Assembly (NCBI GenBank): GCA_016280445.1
Contig: JAEEGS010000076.1
Location: 1 to 44,585, forward strand
Origin: Bacteroidaceae bacterium
GTDB taxonomy: Bacteria > Bacteroidota > Bacteroidia > Bacteroidales > Bacteroidaceae
Direction of reading: 5' to 3'
Length of the DNA: 44,585 nucleotides
Part shown: in pieces, positions 1,357-44,585 of the stretch
Numbering within the stretch: the stretch's first letter is position 1
Layout of the letters: each line of letters starts with the position of its first letter
Program-made: the position numbers and the translations under genes
Notes under the pieces: generated by a model
What the model saw: the letters and a program-made list of their open reading frames with translations, nothing else
Told to the model about the DNA's origin: nothing
Database searches by the model: none

Positions 1357-1379
1357 AATACTTTGTTTAATTAGAAATA

Positions 1380-2969: not shown

Positions 2970-2984
2970 ATTCCAAATTCTTAA

Positions 2985-4520
2985 TTACTTGAGTGCCTTG
3001 TTAATCATGTAGTACACCTCGTTCATCTGGAGGTCGTGCTTGAACTCGCTGATAGTGGTGTTCTTGTTAATCTTGACATACTCGATGCCGAGCATCTCAG
3101 CGAAGTCTTCCCAATACTCTTCTGTGATGTCGTATGAGAAAGCGCTGTGGTGTGTACCACCTGCGAGAATCCATGCACCTGCACCAATCTCGAAACTTGG
3201 CTGTGGAACCCAAAGAGCCGATGCAACAGGAAGGTTTGGCATTGGCTTTGGCTCGATGCACTCAACCTCCTGAGAAATGAGACGGAAGCGGTTGCCAAGG
3301 TCAACAACTGTTGCCTTGATACCACGACCCACCTTAGAAGTGAACACGAGACGAGCAGTCTGCTGCTTGCGGATACCGATGCCGAGGAAATGAACTTCGA
3401 GTTTTGGCTTGTCGACTGCGATGAGCGGACAAACTTCGAGCATGTGGCTCTGGAGGCAAGAAGAACGGTCGCCTGCAAAGTTGAGAGTGTAGTCCTCGAG
3501 GAATGAGCAACCGATTGGCATGCCCTGCTGAATCACCCAAAGTGCGCGATAGAGGCAAGCGGTTTTCCAGTTACCTTCAGCACCGAATCCGTAGCATTCT
3601 TCCATCAGACGCTGTGAAGCGAGACCTGGAATCTGGTCGAAACCAACGAAGTTAGGATCGTTGATGTCAGCATCGCCGAGGTCGTCGAAGTTGGTCGTGA
3701 AGGCACTTGCACCCTCATCCTTCAATACGCGACGGAGCGCGATTTCAGCCTTAGCGGCGTTCTTCACTTTCTCCCAATATACTTCCTCACCGCTCTCGTC
3801 AATCTTGATGGTGTAGAGTTTCTTGTATTCTTCAACGAGTGCATCAGCCTCAGCGTCAGTTACCTGCTTGAAGTATTCCATAAGAGAGGAAACGGGGTAG
3901 TAGTCAACGTGGTAACCCATGCGCTGCTCGAACTCAACACGGTCGCCATCAGTAACGGCCACATTGTTCATGTTCATACCAAACATGAGGCAACGTACGT
4001 TCTTGGCATCGGCAACACCTGCTGCCACACGTGCCCAAACAGCAATCTGCTTCTGTGCTGCTTCGTCCTTCCAGAATCCACAAACCACCTTGCGAGGAAC
4101 ACGCATGCGAGTGCAGATGTGACCGAACTCGATGTCACCGTGAGCCGACTGGTTCAGGTTCATGAAGTCCATGTCAATCTCGCTCCATGGAATCTCGGCG
4201 TTGTATTGAGTGTGGAAGTGAAGGAGAGGCTTCTGAAGTGCCTGCAAACCCTTAATCCACATCTTGGCAGGAGAGAAGGTGTGCATCCAAGTGATGATAC
4301 CTGCGCACTTCTCATCGTTGTTGGCTGCCTTCATCACGGCTTCCACTTCCTTTGAAGAGTTGGCTGTTCCTTTGTAAACCACCTTGATAGGGATGAGACC
4401 ACCATTGTTGAGACCATCCACCATTTCTTTTGAGTGACCGTCAACAATCTTCACTGTTTCGCCACCATAAAGCAACTGTGCACCAGTCACCCACCAGAGT
4501 TCCAAATTTTCAAATGCCAT
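2985..4520 (-). CDS. araA: L-arabinose isomerase
   Basis: Converts L-arabinose to L-ribulose, the first step of the pathway; the enzyme is Mn-dependent in this family. The 511 residues align throughout with the AraA family. By comparison with the E. coli metal/catalytic set (Glu306, Glu333, His350, His450), I read Glu315 in GFGAEGNWKTA, His359 in QSHMLEVCP and His457/458 in GGTHHSAFS as conserved. The first position is Asp279 in TTNFDDLG, where Glu is expected, and it is followed by a loop about nine residues longer than in E. coli. The gene is 45 bases downstream of araD and 15 upstream of araB. Identity is not in doubt; the Glu-to-Asp reading rests on my manual alignment. Confidence 0.95.
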   Translation of the reverse strand: MAFENLELWWVTGAQLLYGGETVKIVDGHSKEMVDGLNNGGLIPIKVVYKGTANSSKEVEAVMKAANNDEKCAGIITWMHTFSPAKMWIKGLQALQKPLLHFHTQYNAEIPWSEIDMDFMNLNQSAHGDIEFGHICTRMRVPRKVVCGFWKDEAAQKQIAVWARVAAGVADAKNVRCLMFGMNMNNVAVTDGDRVEFEQRMGYHVDYYPVSSLMEYFKQVTDAEADALVEEYKKLYTIKIDESGEEVYWEKVKNAAKAEIALRRVLKDEGASAFTTNFDDLGDADINDPNFVGFDQIPGLASQRLMEECYGFGAEGNWKTACLYRALWVIQQGMPIGCSFLEDYTLNFAGDRSSCLQSHMLEVCPLIAVDKPKLEVHFLGIGIRKQQTARLVFTSKVGRGIKATVVDLGNRFRLISQEVECIEPKPMPNLPVASALWVPQPSFEIGAGAWILAGGTHHSAFSYDITEEYWEDFAEMLGIEYVKINKNTTISEFKHDLQMNEVYYMINKALK

Positions 4521-4565
4521 AATCTTGATTATTTTTTGAGTTATTATTTTTGTTAGTTAATCGAA

Positions 4566-5276
4566 TTAGTGTTTTTGACCTTTTTGGCCGTAGTAAGCGT
4601 TGGGGCCATGCTTACGGTTGTAGTGTTTCTCAACCAGCAGTTGATTCATGGTCAGGTTTGGATTGACAGAGAAGGCGACGAATGCCATCTTTGCACATTG
4701 TTCCATCACTTTTGCGTTGTACACTGCATTGTCGGGAGAGGTGCCCCATGAGAAAGGACCGTGATTCTTCACCAGCACTGCTGGGGTGTGGTCGGGGTTA
4801 ATCTTGCGGATGTTGAGGATTTCGTCCACAATGACATTGCCGGTTTCCAATTCGTATTGACCTTCCACTTCCTCTTTTGTCATGTCGCGAGTGCATGGAA
4901 TGGCTTTGTAGAAGTAGTCAGCATGTGTGGTGCCGATGTTGGGAATGTCTTTTCCTGCCTGTGCAAAAGCAGTTGCGTAGGTGGAGTGTGTGTGAACGAC
5001 TCCCTGAATGTTGGGGAACGCTTTGTAAAGAACGAGATGGGTTGGGGTGTCGGAAGAAGGATTGAGGTCACCTTCCACCACTTTTCCACTTTCTAAATCA
5101 ACGACAACCATATCGCTCGCTTTCATCTCATCATAACTTACTCCCGATGGTTTAATCACTACGAGACCCTTTTCGCGATCGATGCCGGACACGTTGCCCC
5201 AAGTGAAGATGACCAAACCTTGCTTTACCAAGTCAAGGTTTGCCTTGAATACTTTTTCTTTCAGTTCTTCTAACAT
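4566..5276 (-). CDS. araD: L-ribulose-5-phosphate 4-epimerase
   Basis: Class II aldolase-family zinc enzyme that inverts C4 of L-ribulose-5-phosphate to give D-xylulose-5-phosphate. The 236 residues match the usual length of about 230. The zinc ligands are visible as His95 and His97 in VVHTHSTY and His172 in KNHGPFSWG. Asp120 (THADYF) and Tyr228/229 (NAYYGQ) match the catalytic Asp120 and Tyr229 described for E. coli AraD. The N-terminal TWGNVSG and KPSGVSY phosphate-binding segments are also present. The gene sits between araR and araA in the same operon. A fuculose-phosphate aldolase, the close relative, is less likely because of the neighbours. Confidence 0.93.
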
Positions 5277-5310
5277 AGTATAACCATTTTAAGATTTATA
5301 GAAATTCGTG

Positions 5311-5949
5311 TTACTTAAACTCATATAGTGTTGCACCACGACGTGAGGACACCTTGTCCACCATGCCTGTGGGCTTGATATAGTCTTTTTCGGAGATAGA
5401 ACGACGGAAGTTCCGCTTGTCTATCGAGGTGCCGAGAATGCTCTCGTAGAGGGTCTGCAAGAGGCTCAGCGTGAAGTATCGGGGCAAGAGATTGCTGCCG
5501 ATGGGTTCGTTTTTAATGGTTTCGCCAATTGTGCGGCGAGCCTGCTGCACCATGTCGTTGTGGTCGAAGCAGAGGGTGGGGAGATGCTCCACATCCACCC
5601 ATTTGGCGTTGTGGAGTTCGGAGAGATGGGCGTCGTAATTGTCGACGTTGATGAGTGCGTAGTACACGATGCTGACAACCCGCTCGCCAGGGTCGCGTTC
5701 CACTTCACCATAGGTGGCCAGTTGTTGCATGTACACGTTGTCAAGACCGGTGAACTCTTTGAGAATGCGTTTGGCGGATGAGTCCACACTTTCGTCAGAT
5801 TGAACAAAGCCTCCAATCAGTGACAGTTCGCCCATGCCCGGTTCGTAAGGACGCTGGTGTATCAGCACCTTCAGATGTCCTTCTGCAAATCCGAAGATGA
5901 TACAATCGACGGACACGTAGAATTTCGGGTATGACTTGTATACTGTCAT
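5311..5949 (-). CDS. araR: AraR-type transcriptional regulator, degenerate Nudix domain plus winged helix
   Basis: The 212 residues have an N-terminal Nudix-like fold (about 8-145) and a C-terminal winged-helix region (about 150-212). The Nudix box region, residues 47-69, keeps the leading Gly and first Glu but has RI in place of RE, and KE in place of the EE pair. Catalysis is therefore unlikely, as expected for an effector-sensing domain. In Bacteroidetes this architecture inside arabinose operons is the known repressor of L-arabinose utilisation, characterised in Bacteroides thetaiotaomicron. It lies between the symporter and araD in the operon it should control. A candidate palindrome near the operon promoter is listed separately. 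Role by context; effector and operator not proven here. Confidence 0.88.
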   Translation of the reverse strand: MTVYKSYPKFYVSVDCIIFGFAEGHLKVLIHQRPYEPGMGELSLIGGFVQSDESVDSSAKRILKEFTGLDNVYMQQLATYGEVERDPGERVVSIVYYALINVDNYDAHLSELHNAKWVDVEHLPTLCFDHNDMVQQARRTIGETIKNEPIGSNLLPRYFTLSLLQTLYESILGTSIDKRNFRRSISEKDYIKPTGMVDKVSSRRGATLYEFK

Positions 5950-5996
5950 TGATTGGAGGCTCTTATATATAAATAATGTGTAAGTCTAAATCTGGA

Positions 5997-7961
5997 TTAC
6001 CAGAGCAGGATGTAAAGAATCATTGTGATGACACAGATACCGATAGTGCCATAGGTGTAACCACGAGTAGTGGCGAACAGCGAGAGGTCGATAGGGAGTG
6101 CCTTAGGATCGGCCTTCGTGTCTTTCGAGTTGCTGTAAAGCCATATTGCATTGCAACCAACAAGCACACCGAAGAAGATGAATGCCTGGAAGCCGATGTC
6201 GTTCAAATAAGCGGTCAGCTCTGTAGAGTTGCCCATTGCAACAACGATGATGGCTACAAAAATCATCACGAGACCTGCACAACCAAGAACCTTCGACCAG
6301 GTCAACATAGCCTTCTGATCTGCTTCTGATGGAGTTTTAACGCTGACATACTTCTTGTCGAGGTAGCTGACGAGGATGAAGAAGCTGACGAGAATGATGA
6401 AGATGTAGCCTGCACGGAACTGGAATGCCACGTCTGGCAGGAATACCTTGAAGAGCACACCCATTGGGATGGTGAGGATGGCTGTCCATACAGCAGCCGT
6501 AGAAGAGGCGCGCTTCCAAAGAAGACCCAGACCGAATACGGTGATGATACCAGGATAGATGAAGCCTGAATATTCCTGAATGTACTGGAATGCCTGATCG
6601 AGACCACCAAGGAGAGGCTTCACAGCCACAGCTGCTATCACGAGGGCTGCAACGGCTACGATACGTCCAACATTCACGAGCACCTTGTCAGATGCACCCT
6701 TGTTGATGTATTTCTTGTAGATATCCATCGTGAAGAGCGTGGAGGTACTGTTGAACATGGAAGCCAGCGATGAAATGATGGCTGCGGTGAGGGCTGCAAA
6801 CGAGAGACCCTTGATACCTGTTGGCGTGAAGTTGCGAATCAGCCAAGGATAAGCGTCGTCGGCCACATTGATGGAACCTTGCAAGTGAGAGAACTGGTCG
6901 GCGTTCTGTGCCATGTAGTAAGCGCAGATACCAGGAAGCACCACGATGAATGGAATCAAAATCTTGAGGAAACCTGCAAACACGAGACCCTTCTTGGCTT
7001 CGTCGATGCTCTTGGCTGCCAGACCTTTCTGAATGATATACTGGTTGAAACCCCAGTAACCCAAGTTGGTCAACCACACACCACCCACGATGGCAGCGAT
7101 ACCAGGCACATTGTCGAAGGCGTTGGAACCATCGGCGTGTGGGTGTGCCATAGCGTTGGAACGCTGGATGACCAAATGGAAGTGGGTGTCGTTGGCGAAA
7201 TCACCAGTGGTGAGATAGGTGTACACCTTGTTGAAACCGTCAATGAATGTGCCGTCATCACCTGCCACAGAGCAGAGGGCGAAGTAAGCCGTCACAAGAC
7301 CACCACCCACGAGGAAGGTCACTTGCATCACGTCTGTCCATGCAACAGATGCAAGACCGCCGTAGATGGAGTAGATACCAGCGATGAGGAAAAGGGCGAT
7401 GATGATAACCATGCGCATTGAGATGGCCATGCCTCCGATGGTGACAGTCAATCCCTGAAGACCAAGAATCTGCTCGATGGCGAGAGCACCCAGCCAAGCC
7501 ACGGAGGTCAGGTTCACAAATACGTAGAGGAAAAGCCACAGGATGGAGAATGCGAGACCCACACCGTCGTTGTAACGTTCGCGGAGGAACTGAGGAATGG
7601 TGAAAATCTTGCGTTCAATCATGGTCGGAAGCAGGAATTTGCCGATGACCACCAGTGTGACTGCTGCCATCACCTCGTAGGCTGCGATGGCGATACCGTC
7701 AGCATAACCGGTACCAGACATACCGATGAACTGCTCTGCCGAAATGTTAGCGGCAATGAGCGAAGCACCTACAGCCCACCATGTCAGTGTGTTGCCGGCA
7801 AGGAAGTAGTCGTTGGCGCTCTTGCCCTTACCATCCTTGTCGCGGCTGAGGAACATGCCGAGGCTTACGAGCAGGATGATGTAAACAACCAAAATGATAA
7901 AGTCGATGGTTTCAAAGCCACTCTGACTTATCGCTTCGGTGAAACTCAATTGTGTATCCAT
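5997..7961 (-). CDS. araT: Sodium/sugar symporter (SSS/SGLT family), probable L-arabinose transporter
   Basis: Inner-membrane symporter of 654 residues with roughly fourteen hydrophobic segments, typical of the SGLT branch of the solute:sodium symporter family. Family features visible are the N-terminal FETIDFIILVVYIILLVSLG helix, the ISAEQFIGMSGTGYADG stretch and SIYGGLASVAWTDVMQ. A large loop around residues 260-290 is rich in His, Asn and Asp. The gene starts 62 bases after the lipoprotein mutarotase and precedes araR, so the substrate is probably L-arabinose. The gene symbol follows the usage for arabinose-operon symporters. Galactose or glucose import cannot be excluded from sequence. 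Confidence 0.88.
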   Translation of the reverse strand: MDTQLSFTEAISQSGFETIDFIILVVYIILLVSLGMFLSRDKDGKGKSANDYFLAGNTLTWWAVGASLIAANISAEQFIGMSGTGYADGIAIAAYEVMAAVTLVVIGKFLLPTMIERKIFTIPQFLRERYNDGVGLAFSILWLFLYVFVNLTSVAWLGALAIEQILGLQGLTVTIGGMAISMRMVIIIALFLIAGIYSIYGGLASVAWTDVMQVTFLVGGGLVTAYFALCSVAGDDGTFIDGFNKVYTYLTTGDFANDTHFHLVIQRSNAMAHPHADGSNAFDNVPGIAAIVGGVWLTNLGYWGFNQYIIQKGLAAKSIDEAKKGLVFAGFLKILIPFIVVLPGICAYYMAQNADQFSHLQGSINVADDAYPWLIRNFTPTGIKGLSFAALTAAIISSLASMFNSTSTLFTMDIYKKYINKGASDKVLVNVGRIVAVAALVIAAVAVKPLLGGLDQAFQYIQEYSGFIYPGIITVFGLGLLWKRASSTAAVWTAILTIPMGVLFKVFLPDVAFQFRAGYIFIILVSFFILVSYLDKKYVSVKTPSEADQKAMLTWSKVLGCAGLVMIFVAIIVVAMGNSTELTAYLNDIGFQAFIFFGVLVGCNAIWLYSNSKDTKADPKALPIDLSLFATTRGYTYGTIGICVITMILYILLW

Positions 7962-8023
7962 TTTTTAAGTAGAAATTAGTAATTATTAATGTTGATTGTT
8001 TTCAGAGGATGAATGGTCTATTC

Positions 8024-9253
8024 TCACTTTTCAACAGAGAAGACATATTTGCAGTAAGAGTGATAAGGTTTCTCGGGAGTGACGAATGGGTTGCTCAGTT
8101 CCCAACCTGGCATCATGCACTTGTTGGGTGAATCTGGGAACTTTTGGCTCTCGAGGCAGATGGCACAATGCTTCTGATACATGATGCCACCCTTGCCAGG
8201 ACGGGTGCCGTCTTGGAAGTTAGCCGAGTAGCACTGCACGCCAGGCTCGTTGGTGTACATGTCCATCTTGATGCCCGAACGTGGGTCGCTCATTGTCACA
8301 GCTACCTCTTCCTGATTACCTTTTGTGTTCAACACCCAGTTGTGGTCGTAACCGCCACCAACTGAAACCATCTCTGGATCGTTCTTGTCGAAGTCAGCAC
8401 CGATGGCTTTTGGAGTACGGAAGTCAAACACTGTTCCCTCCACAGGCTTGATTTCGCCAGTAGGGATGAGGTTGTCGTCGCCAGGCGTGTAGTTGTCTGC
8501 GTTCACTGTCAGGATAGATTCGTCGATGGTGTTGTTCAGGTCGCCTGAGAGGTTGAAATAAGTGTGGTTGGTCATGTTCAGCACTGTGGGAGCGTCTGCT
8601 GTTCCGTCGTAAGTGATGACGATGGCATTGTCGTCCGTGAGTTCAAACTTCACTGTTGCCACCACCTTGCCGGGGAACTTGTTGTCGCCATCAGCAGACT
8701 CGCGCTTGATGGTGAGCGACTGCTCAGTGGATTCCACCACGTCGTATACCTGATATTGCCAACCTGTGTAACCGCCGTGCAGACAGGCCACACCGTTGTT
8801 GTTCTTGTCCAGAGTCACTTTCGTGCCGTTGTAGGTGTACTCGCCGTTGTTGATGCGGTTGGCATAGCGACCTACCGAACAGCCGAAGTCGGTCTCAAAG
8901 TTCCAAGGGAAGTAGTTCTCTACCTTGTCGAAACCGCATGCCACGTCCACAAATTCGCCATCTTTGTTAGGCACCATAATGCTCACGATGCGGCCACCAA
9001 AATTGGTGATGCACACCTCCATGCCATTTTTGTTTGTCAATGTGTAGAGTTTCACAGGTTTTGCGTCAGTTGAATCAGCCACGAACTTGTTGGCCTCAGC
9101 ATCGTATGACACAGCGATGCAAGTGTCGTAGTCGGCAGGATTGATGCCGGATTTAGTCAACTGAACTTCAGTGGGTTGCTGTGCTGGATTGCACGCGCAT
9201 AGGAATGCTACGGCCGCAGCACTCCCCATCAAAATCGTTTTAAGATTTTTCAT
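8024..9253 (-). CDS. galM: Aldose 1-epimerase (mutarotase), predicted lipoprotein
   Basis: Interconverts alpha and beta anomers of aldoses. The 409 residues start with a lipoprotein signal (MKNLKTILMGSAAAVAFLCA before Cys21), so the enzyme is probably anchored in the periplasm or outer membrane; the second mutarotase in this window has no signal. Active-site motifs are LHGGYTGWQ, the general-acid His in NHTYFNLSG, and the base Glu in AICLESQKFPDSPN. It is the first gene after the regulated promoter and lies directly before the arabinose symporter, so it may supply the anomer that the transporter prefers (inference). Whether it prefers arabinose or galactose is unknown. Confidence 0.92.
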   Translation of the reverse strand: MKNLKTILMGSAAAVAFLCACNPAQQPTEVQLTKSGINPADYDTCIAVSYDAEANKFVADSTDAKPVKLYTLTNKNGMEVCITNFGGRIVSIMVPNKDGEFVDVACGFDKVENYFPWNFETDFGCSVGRYANRINNGEYTYNGTKVTLDKNNNGVACLHGGYTGWQYQVYDVVESTEQSLTIKRESADGDNKFPGKVVATVKFELTDDNAIVITYDGTADAPTVLNMTNHTYFNLSGDLNNTIDESILTVNADNYTPGDDNLIPTGEIKPVEGTVFDFRTPKAIGADFDKNDPEMVSVGGGYDHNWVLNTKGNQEEVAVTMSDPRSGIKMDMYTNEPGVQCYSANFQDGTRPGKGGIMYQKHCAICLESQKFPDSPNKCMMPGWELSNPFVTPEKPYHSYCKYVFSVEK

Positions 9254-35428: not shown

Positions 35429-36034
35429 ATGGGAAAATATTATTATCTCTCTCCTCAGAATGAGCAGAAAGGACCAGTCGACGCCAGCGAACTGATTGCT
35501 AACGGCGTGAAGGCTGATACATTAGTGTGGGCAGCAGGAATGCCACAGTGGTCTTCTGCTTCAGAAGTGCCGGAACTTGCTGCATTGTTTGCTCCAGCTC
35601 CACAAGCAGCACCACCAATTCCAACTCCTCAGCCAGCACCAGCACCTCAACCAGCACCTGCTCCTCAATCCGCTCCACAACCTCAGCCAGCACCTCAACC
35701 CGCTCCGGCTGACAATTATAATAAGAGTGAGCACCAGAATACTTTCCAGACTGTGCCTCCAGCAGGTGTGGCATCAGACCCCTCTGTACAACCCAAGCCT
35801 AATAATAATCTTGTATGGGCTATTCTTACTACAGTGATGTGTTGTTGGCCAGTTGGTATCTATGCCATTATTTGTGCAAACAAGGTTGATTCGCTCTATA
35901 ATGCAGGACAGTATGAAGAGGCCGTGAAACAGGCTGCCGATGCCAAGAAGTGGTCCATTATCGGTGCTGCCGCTGGAGGAATCTTCTTGTTCTTCTATAT
36001 GATTTTTGCTATTATTGCAGCAGTCAATAGTTAA
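35429..36034 (+). CDS. GYF-like plus CD225/dispanin membrane protein, paralogue 1
   Basis: 201 residues. The N-terminal GYF_2-like domain (1-52, YYYLSPQNEQKGPVDASELI and TLVWAAGMPQWSSA) probably binds a peptide or partner. It is joined by a Pro/Ala/Gln-rich linker (about 55-105) to a CD225/dispanin-type domain with two helices: LVWAILTTVMCCWPVGIYAI, then VDSLYNAGQYEEAVKQAADA and a terminal helix. The soluble N-terminus is likely cytoplasmic. A paralogue of the same layout follows 44 bases later. Function unknown. Confidence 0.85.
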   Translation: MGKYYYLSPQNEQKGPVDASELIANGVKADTLVWAAGMPQWSSASEVPELAALFAPAPQAAPPIPTPQPAPAPQPAPAPQSAPQPQPAPQPAPADNYNKSEHQNTFQTVPPAGVASDPSVQPKPNNNLVWAILTTVMCCWPVGIYAIICANKVDSLYNAGQYEEAVKQAADAKKWSIIGAAAGGIFLFFYMIFAIIAAVNS

Positions 36035-36078
36035 CGTCGACTTTTATTGAAAGGATTGTCCATCATAAAAAAAGAATC

Positions 36079-36657
36079 ATGCGACATTATTTTTATATAT
36101 CTCCTCAAAATGAGCAGAAAGGCCCAATAGAGGGTAGCCAACTGCCAGCATATGGTGTCACAGCCCAAACGATGGTGTGGACACAGGGAATGCCTCAGTG
36201 GATGCCTGCTGGTCAGGTGGAAGAGTTGTTACCCGTTCTTCCTCATGTTGCGCAGGCTGCTCCTCAGATGGCTCCACCTCCACAAATGGCTGCTGCCCCT
36301 CAGATGATGGCCGCTCCGCAAATGGCTGCTGCTCCGCAAGCACCACAATCGGTGACTTACATCCAGACGGCTCCGGGTTATGCGCCTCAGCAACCCATGA
36401 TGCCCAAGCCGGGCAGCAACATGGTGCTGGCTGTGCTGTCCACCCTGTTCTGTTGCCTCCCGACAGGCATTTATGCCATCATTTGTGCCTCTCAAGTGGA
36501 CGGATTATATAGCCGTGGCGATTATGCTGGTGCCGTTTCGAAGGCGAATAGTGCCCGCAACTGGTCCATCATCGGTGCCGTTGCTTCAGTGGTGATCTCG
36601 ATTCTCTACATGGTTTTCTATGGTGCGGCTATTGTTGCAGCTTTGGAAAATATGTAA
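36079..36657 (+). CDS. GYF-like plus CD225/dispanin membrane protein, paralogue 2
   Basis: 192 residues with the same order as the preceding gene: GYF_2-like domain (1-52, FYISPQNEQKGPIEGSQLPA, QTMVWTQGMPQWMPAG), a linker of Gln-Met-Ala-Ala-Pro repeats (about 60-95) instead of Pro-Ala, then the two-helix CD225-type domain (MVLAVLSTLFCCLPTGIYAI and VDGLYSRGDYAGAVSKANSA). The differing linkers against conserved ends suggest a tandem duplication with free drift of the spacer. The same transcript probably continues into the DUF2752 gene. Confidence 0.85.
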   Translation: MRHYFYISPQNEQKGPIEGSQLPAYGVTAQTMVWTQGMPQWMPAGQVEELLPVLPHVAQAAPQMAPPPQMAAAPQMMAAPQMAAAPQAPQSVTYIQTAPGYAPQQPMMPKPGSNMVLAVLSTLFCCLPTGIYAIICASQVDGLYSRGDYAGAVSKANSARNWSIIGAVASVVISILYMVFYGAAIVAALENM

Positions 36658-37104: not shown

Positions 37105-38790
37105 TTAATCGCTTCCGAAGAGAATTTTCCTTTCCCGTTCTGTGGCTTGAGCCACCCAATCTTCAGGCACAAACCGCCAATGGTTCTTGGCCTGTGGATT
37201 GATGGCGCCCAATTCCTGCACATATTCCATCAGGTAGTGACGGATGTCGTGTTGACTCACGCTCAGGATGCGTGAATCCATTTCCTCCTTCGACAATCCC
37301 GCACCTTTGGTCAGCAGTTCGCCACCTCCATTGGCTCTGTAGGCCGTCATGGCCACGGTGTAAGTTTCGTTCATCAGGAAAGGGCGTCCGTCGTCCATCG
37401 AGATGATGTGCACTTTCTCTCCCTCGGGTTTGGTCACGTCCACTTCATAGCGGATGCCCGCTGCCGAGTCGAAATTGAAGATGAAGTTCTTGAATCCCAT
37501 TCTGTCGGGATTGCTCTTCATCGGACTGATGAGCAGCATAGTGTCGGTGGGCGCATGCATTTGCTGTGTCCAACTGGCATAGCTCATCTCCAGATAATCC
37601 TTGATTTCCTGTCCTGTGAGCAACAGGGTGTAGAGGTGGTCCTCAAAGCGGTAAAGGTCGAAAAGGTTGCTGACACAGATGTCACCAGCCTCAATAGAGG
37701 CGTTGAAGAAGAGTGGGGCACTGAACGAGAGGTCGGCACCGCTCACTCTGAGTTGCAAGTCTTGAATGAGGTCAATATATGCCGACGAACCGAAATATGC
37801 ATCAGCCACATCCACACGGTTCAGGAACTTCCCGATTTTTTGCGAGGCAAAGCGCTTCACCTCGTGGAAAGCGTAGGCGAAGTGGCGTCTGAAGGAATTG
37901 GCATGCTGGTTGTGCAGCGTTCCGATATAGTTGAGGGTGCACAGCGTTTCGTGGCTGGTCACCTTGCCCTGTTCGTTGATGCGGAAATCGACATCCACCA
38001 CTGCAACGCTGTAGGCATAGCATCCGGGGTTGATGCACGGCACGTTCCGTCCCTGCTTGGTGGTCACTTCCTCCATGTTGCTCGAATGGTCGTGCCCATA
38101 GAGGATGAGGTCAAACCCTTCCACATTCTCAGCCGTTTCGCGCGTGGCATTCTCCTTGTAGTCGGGTGTCACAATACCCTCGTCCATACCCGAATGCAGC
38201 AGTCCGATGACGAAGTCGGGCTTTTCCTCCTCACGCACAATCTTCATCCACCGTTCGGCACTCTCGCGGATGTCCTCAAAGCGGATGCCTTTCCAGATGG
38301 TCTTTGGAATCCAGTGGGGGATGGCAGGGGTAATGAAACCAATCACGGCAATCTTCAGTCCTTGGCGGTAGAAGATTTCATAGGGTTGGAAATACGGTTC
38401 ACCCGTCTCGGTATTGATGGCATTGGCACCCAGAATAGGGTAGTTGCACTCCTCCACAAATTTGTCGAAGATGCCCTTGCCCATCTCAATGTCGTGGTTG
38501 CCAATCACAGCCACGTCGTAGCCGATGTAGTTGCAGATGTCTGCCACTTTGTGGCGCTTGTTCTCGCAGTGGTTGTTGAAGTAGTAGGCCGTGGGCTCAC
38601 CCTGCAACATGTCACCACCGTCAATCAGCAGCGTGTTGCCAGGACTTTCCTGCACCACTTTGGCCACAAACGCATGCACCCGCTGGAGGCTTCCCTTGCC
38701 CCAGTGTCCGTGACGGAAGTCATACGGGAAGTAATTGCCGTGCACATCCGTCGTGAAGATGATTTTCAGGTGCTTCGTTTCTGTACTCAT
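37105..38790 (-). CDS. UshA-like metallophosphoesterase / 5'-nucleotidase, apparently cytosolic
   Basis: The start is set at ATG 38790 (MSTETKHLKIIFTTDVHGN, 561 residues), because a full promoter ends nine bases before it. The longer frame adds 28 residues across that promoter. The N-terminal calcineurin-like domain has the di-metal motifs TDVHG, DGGDMLQG, GNHDIEMG, GLLHSG and YGHDHSS. The C-terminal 5'-nucleotidase domain has LLTGQEIKDYLEMSY and TVAMTAYRANGGG. Unlike UshA, it has no signal peptide with this start. The likely role is nucleotide or related phosphate hydrolysis; substrate unknown. It converges with the DUF2752 gene 39 bases away. Confidence 0.9.
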   Translation of the reverse strand: MSTETKHLKIIFTTDVHGNYFPYDFRHGHWGKGSLQRVHAFVAKVVQESPGNTLLIDGGDMLQGEPTAYYFNNHCENKRHKVADICNYIGYDVAVIGNHDIEMGKGIFDKFVEECNYPILGANAINTETGEPYFQPYEIFYRQGLKIAVIGFITPAIPHWIPKTIWKGIRFEDIRESAERWMKIVREEEKPDFVIGLLHSGMDEGIVTPDYKENATRETAENVEGFDLILYGHDHSSNMEEVTTKQGRNVPCINPGCYAYSVAVVDVDFRINEQGKVTSHETLCTLNYIGTLHNQHANSFRRHFAYAFHEVKRFASQKIGKFLNRVDVADAYFGSSAYIDLIQDLQLRVSGADLSFSAPLFFNASIEAGDICVSNLFDLYRFEDHLYTLLLTGQEIKDYLEMSYASWTQQMHAPTDTMLLISPMKSNPDRMGFKNFIFNFDSAAGIRYEVDVTKPEGEKVHIISMDDGRPFLMNETYTVAMTAYRANGGGELLTKGAGLSKEEMDSRILSVSQHDIRHYLMEYVQELGAINPQAKNHWRFVPEDWVAQATERERKILFGSD

Positions 38791-38798
38791 ACGGTTGG

Positions 38799-38830
38799 CA
38801 AAGGTACGAATAAGTGAGAGAAAAACCAAA
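38799..38830 (-). promoter_or_regulatory. Promoter of the UshA-like gene
   Basis: TTTG, 20 bases, TACCTTTG, C on the minus strand. The ATG at 38790 lies only nine bases after the -7 box, so the mRNA should have almost no leader. The box is also a perfect GTANNTTTGC, the core site known for the CTnDOT integrase. Confidence 0.8.
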
Positions 38831-38984
38831 TATATTTGAGTTTTTCCGAATGTGAGTACCTTCGACGGAGTCAAAGGTACGACATATTTCTCGTTTAAGC
38901 AACAAAAAACAATGGAAAACAGCCGAACATTATGTAAATCAAGTGGTAATCTTCACGCAAGACCGCCAAATTTGACATTCTCGT

Positions 38985-39051
38985 ATTGTCGAAATTATTG
39001 TCGATTCATCAAAAACATTTCCTTTTTATTGTCGAAAAATTGTCGAAAAAA
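38985..39051 (+). repeat. Four ATTGTCGA boxes upstream of the integrase
   Basis: ATTGTCGA(AA) starts at 38985, 38997, 39028 and 39039: two pairs spaced 12 and 11 bases, close to one helical turn, the last ending at the integrase ATG. They are candidates for arm-type integrase binding sites or an autoregulatory operator. Confidence 0.65.
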
Positions 39052-39052
39052 T

Positions 39053-40219
39053 ATGGCTCAATTATCATTAGTAATAGTACCTGCAAAGGTGCTCACAAGC
39101 GGAAAGCACAAGATCCGCATCGCAGTATCACACAACAGCGAAACAAGGTACATCATCACAGATGTCATAGTAGATAACTCAAAGCAGTTCCGGAACGGAC
39201 AGGTGGCTGGAAGACCTGACGCCAACATTCTCAACGCCAAACTTCGGAAGATTATCTGGAAGTACCAGGGAAGGCTGGATGACATGGAATACATCGAGTC
39301 CATGAGCTGCGCCGAACTTGTCTGTGCGCTGAAGGACAGCACTGGTGACAAGAACATGAGCATCAAGGAGGCTTACAATCAGATGATGAAATACTCCACG
39401 GTGAAGGAGACCACCCAGCGAACAATGGAAACATGCTTCCGCTCTCTTGCCAGATACGTTGGCGAAGACACGCCTATCCGCAAGATTACAAGGCTCACAG
39501 TCTTGGGGTATGAAAAGTTCTTGACGGGCGAAAAGCTCAGTTCCTCGACAAAGAACAACTACATAGGTTTCATGTTCCAAATCATCTCCTTCGCACGGAA
39601 ATGCGGAATCGTCGATGCTGACTTCAATCCTGGCAATGGATACAGAAGAGCACCGAAGACTGTCAGAGATTCGTGGCTGTCATGCAGCGACATCAGGAGG
39701 ATTCGTGACTACCAGTGCAAGACAAAGGAACGCATGATGGCCCGTGACCTCTTCATGCTGTCCTACTACCTCGGAGGCATCAATATGGTGGATCTGAAGG
39801 GACTCGACCTCAACTCCTGCACGAATGAGATGCACTACAAACGAAGCAAGGTCCGAGACAGATGCAACATTGAAGTACGCTACACCATTCCTCCAGAGGC
39901 AAGGGAAATCATCAAGCGCATCAAGACCAAGGATGGCAAACTGCAAATTCCAAAGTGCACAGAGCACTTCATTACGCATCACATGAATGCGTTGCGTGAC
40001 GAACTCGGAATCCCAAACCTCGTCTTTTACTCTGCTCGGAAATCATTCTCCCAGCATGCCTTCGAGCTGGGAGTCTCCACGCAGGTCATAGACTACATTC
40101 TGGGGCATTCTCTACGCGCACACGGTATCATCTACCACTATGTGTCTGTGAAGCCTGAGATGGCAACTGAAGCGATAAGAAAAGTGATTGACAACCTCAA
40201 CAAAGAGGAGGGTGCGTGA
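39053..40219 (+). CDS. int: Tyrosine recombinase / integrase
   Basis: The start is at ATG 39053 (MAQLSLVIVPAKVLTSG, 388 residues), the usual start of Bacteroidetes integrases; the upstream frame reads through repeats. It has an N-terminal arm-binding domain (1-95), a core-binding domain (about 100-190) and a catalytic domain. In the active site, the first Arg is replaced (YYLGGINMVDL, Gly241/242), as happens in some Bacteroidetes integrases such as IntDOT. Lys263 or 266, Arg329 in FYSARKS (with Tyr326 where His is usual), His352 in LGHS and nucleophile Tyr363 in IIYHYVSV are present. ATTGTCGA boxes flank it on both sides. Confidence 0.92.
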   Translation: MAQLSLVIVPAKVLTSGKHKIRIAVSHNSETRYIITDVIVDNSKQFRNGQVAGRPDANILNAKLRKIIWKYQGRLDDMEYIESMSCAELVCALKDSTGDKNMSIKEAYNQMMKYSTVKETTQRTMETCFRSLARYVGEDTPIRKITRLTVLGYEKFLTGEKLSSSTKNNYIGFMFQIISFARKCGIVDADFNPGNGYRRAPKTVRDSWLSCSDIRRIRDYQCKTKERMMARDLFMLSYYLGGINMVDLKGLDLNSCTNEMHYKRSKVRDRCNIEVRYTIPPEAREIIKRIKTKDGKLQIPKCTEHFITHHMNALRDELGIPNLVFYSARKSFSQHAFELGVSTQVIDYILGHSLRAHGIIYHYVSVKPEMATEAIRKVIDNLNKEEGA

Positions 40220-40516: not shown

Positions 40517-41131
40517 TCACTTCAGCTCTATATACTCTGAATACACTATCCGTGTGTGCGGATTCTTGCTCACGACCTCCTGACGGATGGCCTTCGTGCC
40601 GTACTTGATGAACAGGAACCGCTTAGGTACACGGTGGACAATCTGCACAAGCGTATCGACAGACGCCACATCCAAGTCAACCATGCCGTTCCTGATGGTG
40701 CCAGCGACGGCGACCCAGGGAGGGTCTCTCCATTCGAAATGCTTGAGAGAATCAACATACACAACATTATCTCTCACTTCATAGACGATGCTGTCCTTCA
40801 ATTCAGTCTTCACCATCACGCTGGTCTGCGTGCTGGTGGATGAGAGGCTCTGCAGACGGCTCACCTTCAGACCCAAGTCCTTCACCTCCTTGCATTTCTC
40901 CGGATAGTGCCGTCTCAGCTCGTCGCACGTCAGCTGGAGAGCCTGCACCGATGCGGCACTCTTCCCCTCTGCTGTCTCGTACAGGTCAATCTCCTCCAGA
41001 AGCGCATTCTGGTTGTTCAGAAGCCTTGTGCGCTCTTCCTTAACTCTTGTCAACTCACGTCCCTGCCAGGCACACACGCCCACAAGGATTGCAATCGCTA
41101 TGGCAACTGCCGCATACAGATACTTTTTCAT
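40517..41131 (-). CDS. Rz-like phage protein with one membrane anchor and coiled coil
   Basis: 204 residues. An N-terminal membrane helix (MKKYLYAAVAIAIAILVGVC) is followed by a long helix predicted as coiled coil (about 25-95, LTRVKEERTRLLNNQNALLE), then a beta-rich C-terminal part with VYVDSLKHFEWRDPPWVAVA. By place in the cassette (last gene, 3 bases after the endolysin) and by layout it resembles an inner-membrane spanin or Rz-like protein. In Bacteroides such proteins carry a DUF name that I recall as DUF6549, not checked. No outer-membrane spanin partner is evident. Confidence 0.65.
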   Translation of the reverse strand: MKKYLYAAVAIAIAILVGVCAWQGRELTRVKEERTRLLNNQNALLEEIDLYETAEGKSAASVQALQLTCDELRRHYPEKCKEVKDLGLKVSRLQSLSSTSTQTSVMVKTELKDSIVYEVRDNVVYVDSLKHFEWRDPPWVAVAGTIRNGMVDLDVASVDTLVQIVHRVPKRFLFIKYGTKAIRQEVVSKNPHTRIVYSEYIELK

Positions 41132-41134
41132 AGG

Positions 41135-41581
41135 CTATTTCTCCGATATATAAACTGTTTGACCATTTTTCTTCACTGCACGAAGTACTTGCCGACGTTG
41201 ACGAGCACCGAAAGACACATGTACCCAATCGTACCCGTATTCGTTGATGAGCTGGTCAAATGGCAGCTTCAACTGACGGATAAGGTCGAACAACTTCTTG
41301 TTCTCTGAAGGCAGGTCGCTGACGCTCCTTATATCTGCCGCCTCCCCCTTCACATGCTGTGATGAGGCTGCACCGCCGACAGCCTTGTTCAAGGCAGGGC
41401 AACGATAGCCAGATGTAACGATGATAGGCTTTCCGTATGCCTCTCTCAATGGGTCAAGGACTTTTTCGACCAAAGCGGTCAGACTTCTCTTCACTTCGTC
41501 GCTTGGCTTGAACTGGGACTTAATGCCCTTCCTCTGTGCCGTTGCGCTCTTAATCAATTCTTCAATCGTAAAATACTTCAT
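41135..41581 (-). CDS. M15-family peptidase, phage endolysin
   Basis: 148 residues of a zinc D-Ala-D-Ala carboxypeptidase-type or L-Ala-D-Glu endopeptidase fold. Zinc ligands are His76 and Asp83 in SSQHVKGEAADIR and His121 in DWVHVSFG; the catalytic acid is probably Glu114 (LINEYGYDW). The N-terminal IVTSGYRCPALNKAVGGAA is typical. There is no signal peptide, so it needs the holin to reach the cell wall. It starts one base after the stop of the 30-residue membrane peptide. Confidence 0.93.
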   Translation of the reverse strand: MKYFTIEELIKSATAQRKGIKSQFKPSDEVKRSLTALVEKVLDPLREAYGKPIIVTSGYRCPALNKAVGGAASSQHVKGEAADIRSVSDLPSENKKLFDLIRQLKLPFDQLINEYGYDWVHVSFGARQRRQVLRAVKKNGQTVYISEK

Positions 41582-41582
41582 A

Positions 41583-41675
41583 TCAGTTCTTGTTTTTAAT
41601 CTGTCCCCAAATAAGAGCGGCCAGCACTATCGTGAAGGCTACGCCCCAAATCTCATCTATCAGATGCTCATTCAT
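41583..41675 (-). CDS. 30-residue single-helix membrane peptide in the lysis cassette
   Basis: ATG 41675 overlaps the end of the holin gene by 8 bases; the TGA stop lies one base before the endolysin ATG. The peptide MNEHLIDEIWGVAFTIVLAA continues LIWGQIKNKN: a charged start, one membrane helix (about 9-24) and a basic tail. Tight coupling on both sides argues that it is translated. It may be a second holin or holin modulator (inference). Confidence 0.65.
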   Translation of the reverse strand: MNEHLIDEIWGVAFTIVLAALIWGQIKNKN

Positions 41676-42141
41676 CACAAACCTCACTTTCCTTCACCTT
41701 CAATATATCAACTATCTTCTCTCTCAAATCCTTGTTCTCCGCCAACTGCATCAGCAGTCTCTTGAAGTCATCCTGCTGCTTCTTCTCCTTGATATCTGCC
41801 GGCTCCACGATGCTTGTTATCTCTATGTAGGCAACGTAGCAAGTGCCCCCAAGCGTGAACACGGGAATCATCCAGATGTCGTAATGGTAGAACCAATACA
41901 GGAAGAAAACCAGAGAAATCTGCACAACGTCAACAAGCGTCAACGCAAACAGCATGTTGAAGTACTTGTTGACCTTCTCAACAGTTCGTTTCAAAGCTTC
42001 GCTTGTACGCATTTCACCTCTTTGCTTCGCCTTCCTGACTCCTGCCCATAGGTCTGAGAATATGAGACCAAGCGTCACGATGTAGAACAGCAGTATCACC
42101 GCCCCTACAATCAATAGTGTAGTAATCCTCGGTTCCATCAT
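41668..42141 (-). CDS. Phage holin-like protein
   Basis: 157 residues with three to four membrane helices (about 8-32, 64-84, 88-107), the first followed by DLWAGVRKAKQRGE, and a charged C-terminal tail (KEKKQQDDFKRLL). This is the form of the Bacteroides phage holin family. It should form the membrane lesion that releases the M15 endolysin. ATG 42141 overlaps the stop of the preceding gene as ATGA, and its own end overlaps the small membrane peptide. Confidence 0.78.
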   Translation of the reverse strand: MMEPRITTLLIVGAVILLFYIVTLGLIFSDLWAGVRKAKQRGEMRTSEALKRTVEKVNKYFNMLFALTLVDVVQISLVFFLYWFYHYDIWMIPVFTLGGTCYVAYIEITSIVEPADIKEKKQQDDFKRLLMQLAENKDLREKIVDILKVKESEVCDE

Positions 42142-42611
42142 TCCTCGTAATTAGTCCAGTTAACCAATTCCTTTTGCTCTCTCCCCCAGGCGATGCAGCC
42201 CTCGATGTGCGTCTGGACTTGCACGGCGAATGACACGAACTCGTTAACGTCTTGGAACGTGTACATCTCATAGTCCTCGTCAGTTCCAAGCTTCAGTGTC
42301 GGCAGCGTATGGATGTCACCGCCCTTCGCCATGGCATAGTCCAGGGCGATGTTGCGCTGGTTCTCAGCAGACAGCCACACAATCTTGTCTTTGTACTTGA
42401 GACCTGACAGAATCCGTTCCTGCACAATGGCATTGATCTGCCCAAGAATCATTTCCTTCACCTCATCAAAAGAGGGCTTATATTCAAATTCGTGACCATG
42501 GACGTAAGTGCCCATGTCATCCTCCCCGAAGCCGAAGAAGACTTCCCAGCGTCGGCGACCAATCTGCTTGATGCCGTCGCAACGATTTTCTGCGCCATAA
42601 ATCTTTTTCAT
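42138..42611 (-). CDS. Phage protein, DUF4376-like, possibly tail-associated
   Basis: The start is taken at ATG 42611 (MKKIYGAENRCDGIKQIGRR, 157 residues), because the -7 box at 42639-42646 overlaps the longer frame. The C-terminal two thirds, with YKDKIVWLSAENQRNIALDY and EMYTFQDVNEFVSFAVQVQT, resemble DUF4376 domains found in phage tail or tail-fibre assembly proteins. First gene of the lysis cassette transcript, joined to the holin by ATGA. The family call is by eye. Confidence 0.62.
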   Translation of the reverse strand: MKKIYGAENRCDGIKQIGRRRWEVFFGFGEDDMGTYVHGHEFEYKPSFDEVKEMILGQINAIVQERILSGLKYKDKIVWLSAENQRNIALDYAMAKGGDIHTLPTLKLGTDEDYEMYTFQDVNEFVSFAVQVQTHIEGCIAWGREQKELVNWTNYEE

Positions 42612-42638
42612 ACTTGAAACATTTTTTAGATGACATTG

Positions 42639-42646
42639 CAAAAGTA
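42639..42646 (-). promoter_or_regulatory. -7 box of the lysis cassette
   Basis: TACTTTTG followed by C on the minus strand, 28 bases before ATG 42611 and directly after the T run of the reverse transcriptase terminator. No -33 TTTG. Confidence 0.55.
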
Positions 42647-42686: not shown

Positions 42687-42799
42687 GAATCAATGTGATT
42701 CATATTTATATGTATAACAAACAGTTGCGTTATACGCTATTTTTACGTGAACTTGTATTTCACTTGTTTCCATCGAACGGAAAGCCGTCTTGATACAAG
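42687..42799 (-). other. Run of hairpins after the reverse transcriptase gene
   Basis: Four inverted repeats follow each other: GAATCA/TGATTC (42687-42701), GTATAAC/GTTATAC (42712-42735), TTTCC/GGAAA (42767-42783) and CTTG/CAAG (42789-42799). The terminator hairpin is next in line. This may be a structured RNA or a multi-hairpin 3' end; no known RNA family is recognised. Confidence 0.4.
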
Positions 42800-42811
42800 T
42801 ATCATTATCTA

Positions 42812-44479
42812 TCATGTAAATATATAATGTCCGTAGCCATTAGAATCATCATACTCTATCGTTGTGTCAAATGGTATGTTGCCGTTCGCCTCATACGCCT
42901 CAAGATAGTATTTCTGCTCCTTGTCATCCGTAAAGTACTTCTTTAGAATTCCGTTGTCATCAACAGACACCAGATGTCGCAGCCCGTTATCCGTAGGCAC
43001 GTCCCTCTCAAAATCTATAATAACTATGTGCTTGTTCTGGAGGGTCTTGATAGAGACGACTTTTCCCCGGAAGTGCTTCTTACCACTCTCATCACGATAT
43101 GGTGGTATAACACCATCTGGGTCTTCGAAAACCAGAATATAGTGGCCGAAGCCGTCAGAGTCATCATATTCCACAGTGACGGGCTTAGGAAGCATCTTAT
43201 GATCATCAAACTGCTCAACATAGTACTTCATCTCCTTGTCTGCAGTGAAGAACTTCTTTTGTTCCCCTTTGTCATCCACAAGGATGAGATGCCGAGAACC
43301 GTTATCGGTTTTGACATCCTTCTCATAGTCAACAACCAAGACATGCTTGTTCTGCAATGTCTTGATGGAAACGCGTTTTCCCTGAAATCGTTTCTTACCA
43401 TCAGTACCCTTGAACGGGGGCACCGATTTCTTCAATTTACTGAATGAGTCCATTTTCTTGCCTGTTAATATATAAAATAGATGTTTACAGTCTGCATGAC
43501 AGGCCATTCCCTTGAATGACCCGATAATCTCCTGCCTCCGCTTTCTCGACTTCACTTTTGCAAGTTTCCTCGCAGCGTTCTTCTTAGTCCGCTTACGTAT
43601 CAGCGAGTAGTCATCGTAATGAACGAAACCGAGATGGTCAAGCCCCTCCTGGATGGGACGGATAGCCTCATTCGGCTTCACACGTAGGTTCAGCTTCGCC
43701 ACTTCTTTCACATAAATATCTCTCAACTTCCACAGTTCCTTCTTGTCATAATGCCACATCACGACATCATCACAATACCGGTCATACAGATATCGGCATT
43801 CACCATCACGCTCATACTTCAGCACGTGCTCACACATCACATGATCGACTATGGAAAGATACAGGTTGGCAAAGCACTGCGAACTCATCAGACCCTTCGA
43901 CAGGCCTTGTGGCAAGAGCGTGATGAAACTGTCAAGAATTGGCAACAGCAACGCATCTGATATGAACTCACGTATAAGCTCCTTCATCCGCTCCTGACTG
44001 ATGTTGTCATAGAAATGCTCGATGTCGTTCTGGTAATAATACTGCATCATCAGCGGCACATTACGCAGGTCTTCCTCTATGATATGGTGCAGCCAGTGCA
44101 TCCCTCTCCCCTTGATAGAGGCTCCAGTGTTCTTGATGAACGTCGGATAGGTGTATTTCTCCACTATCACCATGATGGCGTGACAACCGACACGCTTGAT
44201 GACACGTGGAGCCTGCACGTCACGCTCCTTGGGACCGTCGGTTACATGAATCTGTCTCACATCAGAGGGAAGGATACGAAAAACACCCCTGCTGATCTCG
44301 TCTTGCAGCAGTGCCACAATCTTTTCTCGCAGAGGTCTGTATATCTCTTTCTGATGACTGTTCTCCAGATGGTCGATGACGTAATCGAAGCTCTCATACA
44401 TATTGTCATCGCTGACGATTTCTGGTATGAGATTGTCAAGAGGATAAACAATTTCGGTGTTCATGCCTTCAGGCTTCAT
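42812..44479 (-). CDS. Reverse transcriptase of diversity-generating retroelement type, with duplicated C-terminal domain
   Basis: 555 residues from ATG 44479, chosen because it forms an ATGA overlap with an open frame entering from the right; TTG 44512 and ATG 44464 are alternatives. RT motifs are: A, Asp152 in YYQNDIEHFYDNIS; B, QGLSKGLMSSQ (191-201) with the GxxxSQ form typical of DGR enzymes; C, YCDD (235-238); then LDHLGFVHYDDYSLIRKR. After the thumb, a domain beginning KKRFQGKRVSIKTLQNKH (362-452) is repeated as KKHFRGKVVSIKTLQNKH (467-555). From memory, related RTs carry this domain once. It would copy an RNA template with adenine mutagenesis to vary a target gene. Template, variable repeat and Avd are not in the window. 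Confidence 0.85.
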   Translation of the reverse strand: MKPEGMNTEIVYPLDNLIPEIVSDDNMYESFDYVIDHLENSHQKEIYRPLREKIVALLQDEISRGVFRILPSDVRQIHVTDGPKERDVQAPRVIKRVGCHAIMVIVEKYTYPTFIKNTGASIKGRGMHWLHHIIEEDLRNVPLMMQYYYQNDIEHFYDNISQERMKELIREFISDALLLPILDSFITLLPQGLSKGLMSSQCFANLYLSIVDHVMCEHVLKYERDGECRYLYDRYCDDVVMWHYDKKELWKLRDIYVKEVAKLNLRVKPNEAIRPIQEGLDHLGFVHYDDYSLIRKRTKKNAARKLAKVKSRKRRQEIIGSFKGMACHADCKHLFYILTGKKMDSFSKLKKSVPPFKGTDGKKRFQGKRVSIKTLQNKHVLVVDYEKDVKTDNGSRHLILVDDKGEQKKFFTADKEMKYYVEQFDDHKMLPKPVTVEYDDSDGFGHYILVFEDPDGVIPPYRDESGKKHFRGKVVSIKTLQNKHIVIIDFERDVPTDNGLRHLVSVDDNGILKKYFTDDKEQKYYLEAYEANGNIPFDTTIEYDDSNGYGHYIFT

Positions 44480-44585
44480 GTGATGTTCCGGCTTTCCGTC
44501 TGGTCGCGACAAATCGCAACTTTAGCAACGCTGTTGCCGAGGCTCAGTCCCCTCGCCCGTACAATGGCAGACTCGCTGCTGCTGC
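44476..44585 (-). other. Open frame entering from the right, possible template-repeat end
   Basis: A frame without start runs from the window edge to TGA 44476, overlapping the RT ATG as ATGA, and reads SESAIVRARGLSLGNSVAKV near its beginning. It is G/C-rich, with hairpins GCAAC/GTTGC and GCGA/TCGC. It is either the end of a coupled gene or the 3' end of the DGR template repeat, which often lies just upstream of the RT. 110 bases are too few to decide. Confidence 0.35.

Follow-up and report, generated by a model that had tools for sequence, protein, structure and literature searches.

The window analysed here is the entire 44,585-nt contig C10 of the Bacteroidaceae bacterium assembly GCA_016280445.1, and close to its right edge, which is the contig end, lies the gene of a diversity-generating retroelement (DGR) reverse transcriptase (RT) that carries an OB-like C-terminal domain twice. 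The locus raises the question of whether a complete DGR is present, what the domain does on the enzyme, and how it came to be there in two copies. With moderate confidence we favour the reading that this is a complete prophage DGR, in which the OB-like domain stands in for the accessory protein Avd in cis, and in which a block of two OB-like domains replaced a single ancestral one.

The reverse transcriptase and its doubled domain

42812..44464, minus strand: gene of the DGR reverse transcriptase; 550 codons if read from ATG 44464, frame open from TTG 44512
43459..44464, minus strand: RT core, comprising GLMSSQ, YCDD and the thumb; its DNA is 89.8% identical to that of sister prophage L067
43127..43414, minus strand: OB-like domain copy A (phrog_19665)
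42818..43099, minus strand: OB-like domain copy B (phrog_19665), modelled by itself (predicted local distance difference test, pLDDT, 90)

The open reading frame (ORF) 42812-44512 lies on the minus strand, so that the 5′ end of the RT points at the window edge; the original prediction had placed the gene at this edge, the contig end, and left its strand unstated. The start is probably ATG 44464, giving 550 aa, since the match of a structured RNA (RT-3, described below) ends there (L083 6857 = window 44464). The protein has GLMSSQ at residues 207-212 and YCDD at 246-249, and in an alignment with 38 relatives residues G207, L208, S210, S211, Q212, D248 and D249 are invariant, bearing out the claim of a DGR-type enzyme. 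There is a match to the profile phrog_1423 “Reverse transcriptase” (E 2e-72), the Pfam RVT_1 score is under its cut-off, NCBIfam matches are far under their curated cut-offs, and PADLOC matches are spread over many RT families, the best being a general RT model (E 2e-17). The best solved relative is 8ub7 (E 2e-12), whose length of 328 aa suggests that it is the BPP-1 RT.

In the phylogeny the window RT groups with the BPP-1 RT and other DGR RTs, the DGR clade expected for it, and is divided from group II and retron-like RTs with a Shimodaira–Hasegawa-like approximate likelihood-ratio (SH-aLRT) support of 98. A retron or group II origin is ruled out by tree and scores. All 27 RTs with a fused domain that were included fall in one group (100). 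The tree, a quick IQ-TREE search, has 48 rows, among them the window, 26 of the roughly 73 relatives with a fused domain, four RTs with a separate OB gene, crAssphage LMMB, L091, BPP-1 and nine Avd-type RTs, two of which (L155 and L167) are truncated; L139, L148, L149, L094 and the LoVEphage-type RTs were omitted, L182, L186 and L188 fell away because no RT-profile match was obtained, and L091, L181, L185 and L187 are long branches.

The duplication claimed for about 90 C-terminal residues is real: the phrog_19665 profile matches this part of the RT in two stretches (E 6e-19), and copies A and B align across 95 residues with 57% identity (E 9e-41). A hidden Markov model built from relatives and copy A matches A at 2e-28 and copy B, which was outside the training set, at 2e-23; the repeat is therefore far beyond chance. 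Across 90 codons the DNA of the copies is 65% identical (35% of positions differ), and the differences by codon position, 24/23/48, are dominated by third positions, as would be seen under purifying selection. A chance repeat or an assembly duplicate is ruled out by this DNA identity with its codon-position bias. The copies are mutually closest, the next best relatives reaching 46-49% over shorter stretches, and both retain the invariant positions of 40 aligned domains. No Pfam family was assigned to the domain, and PHROGs lists neither a function nor a DGR link for phrog_19665.

The OB fold is a five-strand barrel with a helix between strands 3 and 4, and the predicted model of copy B is OB-like. 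Structure comparison of the domain model gave weak matches to OB-type nucleic-acid binders, including single-stranded-DNA-binding proteins, and VIA-align showed no stand-out relative among the matches listed. The full-length RT model has a predicted template-modelling score (pTM) of 0.56, and the position of the domain on the RT is therefore not fixed by it.

Target, repeats and structured RNA on a second contig

Over its last 141 bases (44445-44585) the window coincides exactly with the end of contig C39, which belongs to the same genome; the overlap is apparently of the kind left by an assembler. Adjacency of the two contigs is supported by the sister prophage L067, which holds both parts on one contig in the same order (C39 1-6876 on 1184-8068, the RT core on 7932-9053). 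Together the contigs give the rest of the cassette:

C39 (L083) 6304-6426: variable repeat (VR), in the last codons of the target ORF
L083 6585-6707: template repeat (TR)
44464..44585 of the window, minus strand: 3′ part of the RT-3 structured RNA, in the C39 overlap; the whole RNA is L083 6724-6857, between TR and RT

The target ORF on C39 is open at its 5′ end, has at least 2149 codons and ends at L083 6450; phrog_14959 matches both of its halves, and the tail family phrog_5302 matches its end. TR and VR differ at 12 of 123 positions, nine of them at TR adenines (A = 29/123; hypergeometric P 1e-4), the three other mismatches lying near the 5′ end (one) and the 3′ end (two) of the repeat. Both the template/variable pair and the tail-protein target foreseen to the right are thus present, the VR sitting in a large tail-type gene on the expected side. 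Of the suggested C-type-lectin or Ig-like target the gene stands and the fold was not confirmed: for the C-terminal part there is no Pfam family over the cut-off and no PDB sequence match. Compared with the VR of the window genome, that of sister prophage L067 differs at 21 sites, 14 of them at TR adenines, and that of L068 at 18, 13 of them at TR adenines; their TRs differ at 9 and 6 sites.

The spacer between TR and RT matches the Rfam RT-3 RNA (RF03068, E 1.6e-11), the match ending on the A of ATG 44464. The same RNA is found in L084 (hankyphage; L084 8552-8701), L010, L016, L050 and L067, the spacer of L127 matches the RT-17 RNA (L127 9523-9626), and BPP-1 has the Phage_DGR RNA in that slot; no RNA of such kind was matched in L128, nor in L126, L092, L135 and L123, the last a stretch that starts at its RT and so has no spacer. 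Sitting in the slot of the Phage_DGR RNA, RT-3 and RT-17 look like the tails of DGR template RNAs. In the cassette so assembled, the RT would make adenine-directed errors while copying the TR RNA into complementary DNA (cDNA), which would then overwrite the VR at the 3′ end of the target.

Contig scans for relatives gave 57 viral and 16 genome loci, and an adenine-biased repeat pair, with mismatches mainly at the adenines of the second copy, is present in 59 of these 73; the pair finder was run without a shuffle control, and as an informal control it returned no pair in 26 of 26 Avd-hit loci without an RT. The 14 loci without a pair are L014, L015, L020, L025, L033, L038, L044, L046, L052, L053, L064, L065, L066 and L074, of which 11 have less than 1.8 kb upstream of the match and three (L015, L064, L065) have about 8 kb and still no pair.

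Several related RTs are of interest in themselves. In L091 (745-2628) the second copy of an adenine-biased pair overlaps the end of the RT, and no OB domain was seen in the stretch examined. In LoVEphage (MW660583; L125 10793-12345) the DGR RT runs across three overlapping frames, each shifted by +1 (or −2), with RT profile ranges 6-186, 185-271 and 271-336, followed by the OB domain. The same type of split is seen in L126, L129, L130 and L132, the breaks in L132 being nearly the same at very little DNA similarity. L125 and L130 (80% DNA identity) align without gaps, with substitutions by codon position of 15/13/85, 4/1/44 and 15/7/65 in each piece's own frame; because of these own-frame third-position substitutions without gaps, the double shift looks conserved and functional, by programmed frameshifting or as a split RT. 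In L043 (8040-9480) and L081 (7791-9355) the OB domain is encoded in another frame than the RT core, the two frames overlapping, and in L020 (1129-2583) a stop codon separates core and domain; these breaks may be real or sequence errors.

Distribution, exchange and likely role of the domain

In the loci examined, 77 distinct RT frames carry one copy of the domain, and two copies occur in a single complete frame, that of the window (L004, a cut copy of the same frame, likewise shows both). When viral contigs were scanned for a doubled domain, six exact peptide patterns picked out 10 stretches, of which none was confirmed. The phrog_19665 profile matches 31 of 399 genomes sampled in the family and 2 of 395 sampled across the phylum, namely the window genome and G057; two weak matches are L124 (not confirmed, no RT seen) and G320. 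As a separate gene the domain occurs in L127, L128 and L092 in the order VR-domain-TR-RT, which equals the mtd(VR)-avd-TR-brt of BPP-1 and puts it in the slot of Avd, and in L133 after the RT; all four loci have the adenine-biased pair. Where the domain is found unattached to a whole RT, in 13 distinct frames, such a pair is present at the loci of 10, the exceptions being L020, L064 and L066.

Avd itself was sought with the bAvd family (PF22296). None of 35 phage or virus records matched (31 IMG/VR records from the 57 viral loci, together with hankyphage p00, BS-TP4, LoVEphage and BI-TP1), the control BPP-1 being found at E 2e-37. Of the Avd gene that the original prediction proposed to look for, no match lies on C10 or C39; the sole match in the window genome, on contig C33, is below the cut-off (E 5e-5). 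Across 23 whole genomes 13 matched, five over the cut-off, and in G000, G044, G039, G057 and G369 the matches are on contigs other than that of the OB cassette. Conversely, 12 of 38 Avd-derived loci (L135-L144 and L147-L174) have an RT and an adenine-biased pair; L138 and L139 being apparent near copies, these represent 11 distinct Avd cassettes, not one of which contains the OB domain; the other 26 loci have no RT within about 1.5 kb. Avd and the OB-like domain are thus mutually exclusive in the loci examined. In the tree, OB cassettes are separated from Avd cassettes from within the same family of bacteria; as the Avd-type RTs make up a branch to themselves, the exclusion does not count as many independent events. 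The RT of crAssphage LMMB falls in the branch of the window RT.

How the second copy may have arrived is suggested by the sister prophages, in which one divergent OB copy occupies the site of the double module.

42778..43459, minus strand: swapped-in double-OB module; no blastn alignment to L067 or L068; 682 nt here, 312 nt in L067
42744..42777, minus strand: scar past the new stop, in which the final 11 codons of the ancestral single-domain RT survive in decayed form

Across its full length C39 aligns to L067 at 95.8% and to L068 at 92.2%, and the RT core keeps 89.8% and 88.8% DNA identity, respectively. In protein the core is 92% identical to L114 (from G016:C55) and 90% to L068, the domain about 32% with gaps counted. 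Beyond the RT gene the DNA realigns to the sisters at 83-98% (5000 bases compared), a further stretch between the two downstream pieces of L067 being likewise without alignment. For the first 40 bases past the stop the scar score was reached by 2 of 1000 shuffles, a modest signal, and the case for the scar therefore rests on its continuity with the aligned downstream DNA. A duplication inside the window prophage lineage is not favoured, given that the copies, at 57% identity, seem to predate the sister split and that sister-type DNA follows the stop. From these alignments it seems that a two-copy module, already internally diverged, replaced the single ancestral domain, probably from another, unsampled lineage; fast evolution of the double module may be an alternative to an older divergence of its copies. 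Such a replacement implies that a two-copy lineage should exist elsewhere (the viral-contig scan found none).

Its position, its exclusion with Avd and its association with DGR loci make the OB module the best candidate for the helper role in the window DGR lineage. Fused to the RT, it would replace the separate Avd helper and most likely tether either the RT-3 template RNA or single-stranded cDNA to the enzyme, and the block with two such domains would have taken over from the single one, perhaps with a change in activity. The data would also accommodate the earlier suggestion that the extra domain may alter how template RNA is bound or cofactors are recruited. Against this role speak the near-neutral charge of the domain, which disfavours simple basic RNA binding, and two published annotations: an excerpt of PMC6199706 names a small hankyphage ORF near the RT Avd-like by isoelectric point and mass, and a figure legend from PMC12135933 marks an Avd in hankyphage.

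A domain acting at a late step, coating cDNA or binding host or phage recombination proteins in retrohoming while cDNA synthesis needs no Avd-like helper, would also suit the near-neutral charge, the weak structural likeness to single-stranded-DNA-binding proteins, the exchange of the module while the spacer RNA changed little, and LMMB, which has neither avd nor a detectable OB domain. It leaves unexplained, however, why three separate copies lie between VR and TR in the place of avd, and why OB and Avd exclude each other in the loci examined, and we think it unlikely. That the doubling was a neutral or damaging recombination accident, and that the window cassette may no longer work, is in our view improbable: the RT end is indeed a recombination junction with a decayed remnant past the stop, and it is a single two-copy case against 77 one-copy frames, but the RT reading frame is unbroken with its invariant positions preserved, both copies keep the domain invariants, their differences sit mostly at third codon positions, and a divergence that looks older than the sister split suggests a working two-copy lineage, unless evolution was unusually fast.

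The domain may also be known already, as a DGR-associated protein of Wu et al., presumably the one named CH1. Such a protein, proposed in 2018 and lacking a Pfam or CDD attribution according to an excerpt of PMC10053308, would resemble the window domain in having no Pfam family. If the two are the same, which we hold possible while leaning against it, the DGR link is not new and the novelty is confined to fold, fusion and doubling, all of it compatible with the helper role favoured above. Our literature search found no account of an OB-fold domain on DGR RTs, the accessory survey of Wu 2018, which may have priority, not having been compared; the part of PMC8144416 consulted has no mention of accessory, Avd or fused, and that of PMC7159879 a single mention of the OB fold, on effector domains. 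Whether the Avd-replacing OB module, in trans, in cis or doubled, is a second, unrelated DGR accessory of Bacteroidales phages, swapped independently of RT core, template RNA and target, is to us an evenly balanced question.

Prophage setting and comparison with known systems

Downstream of the RT gene the window contains phage genes and, further on, an integrase-like gene:

42138..42641, minus strand: phage protein phrog_19239; DUF4376 likeness weak, under the Pfam cut-off
41668..42141, minus strand: small protein with a phrog_20732 match; holin only via a weak Pfam match under the cut-off
41135..41581, minus strand: peptidase M15 endolysin
40517..41131, minus strand: DUF6549 protein
38852..40219, plus strand: tyrosine-integrase-like gene

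The last is possibly the edge of the prophage. Beside it lies a gene which we take from its sequence to be 5′-nucleotidase/metallophosphoesterase-like, and the region 37105-40219 is perhaps the chromosome/prophage junction. At 35429-36657 are two adjacent paralogous small proteins, presumably of GYF_2 and CD225 type, both with SPQNEQKGP near the start and a similar membrane-like C-terminal part.

The window DGR shares with that of BPP-1 (mtd-avd-TR-brt) the adenine-biased TR/VR, the tail-protein target, an RNA between TR and RT, and the RT clade; BPP-1 differs in its separate Avd gene, its Phage_DGR RNA, which recruits the RT–Avd complex (PMC12875486, in excerpt), and in having no OB-like domain detected. 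With crAssphage LMMB, an example of the Avd-less lineage 3 DGRs (Wu 2018, as reported in an excerpt of PMC7290462), it shares the RT branch and the arrangement target-TR-RT without avd. No OB domain was detectable in the LMMB RT: a divergent OB domain in its tail found no support, the hhalign probability being 0.4%, inside the range of 20 shuffles (0-2.8%).

Also close is hankyphage p00 (BK010646), with the same RT family (40.5% identity), the order VR-TR-RT, the RT-3 RNA, a large C-terminally varied ORF and no bAvd match in its record. It differs in having one fused OB-like domain rather than two, and a Mu-like transposase (Benler 2018, PMC6199706, in excerpt) where the window has a tyrosine-integrase-like gene nearby. 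The sister prophages are a natural comparison of another kind, with near-same target, template and RT core and one versus two accessory domains. About a quarter of DGRs have no known accessory gene (PMC7290462, same excerpt), and for how these manage, a domain fused to the RT or sitting in the Avd slot is a direct candidate, testable in cultured lysogens of hankyphage, whose VR diversifies in culture and whose DGR is thus active (PMC12135933, in part).
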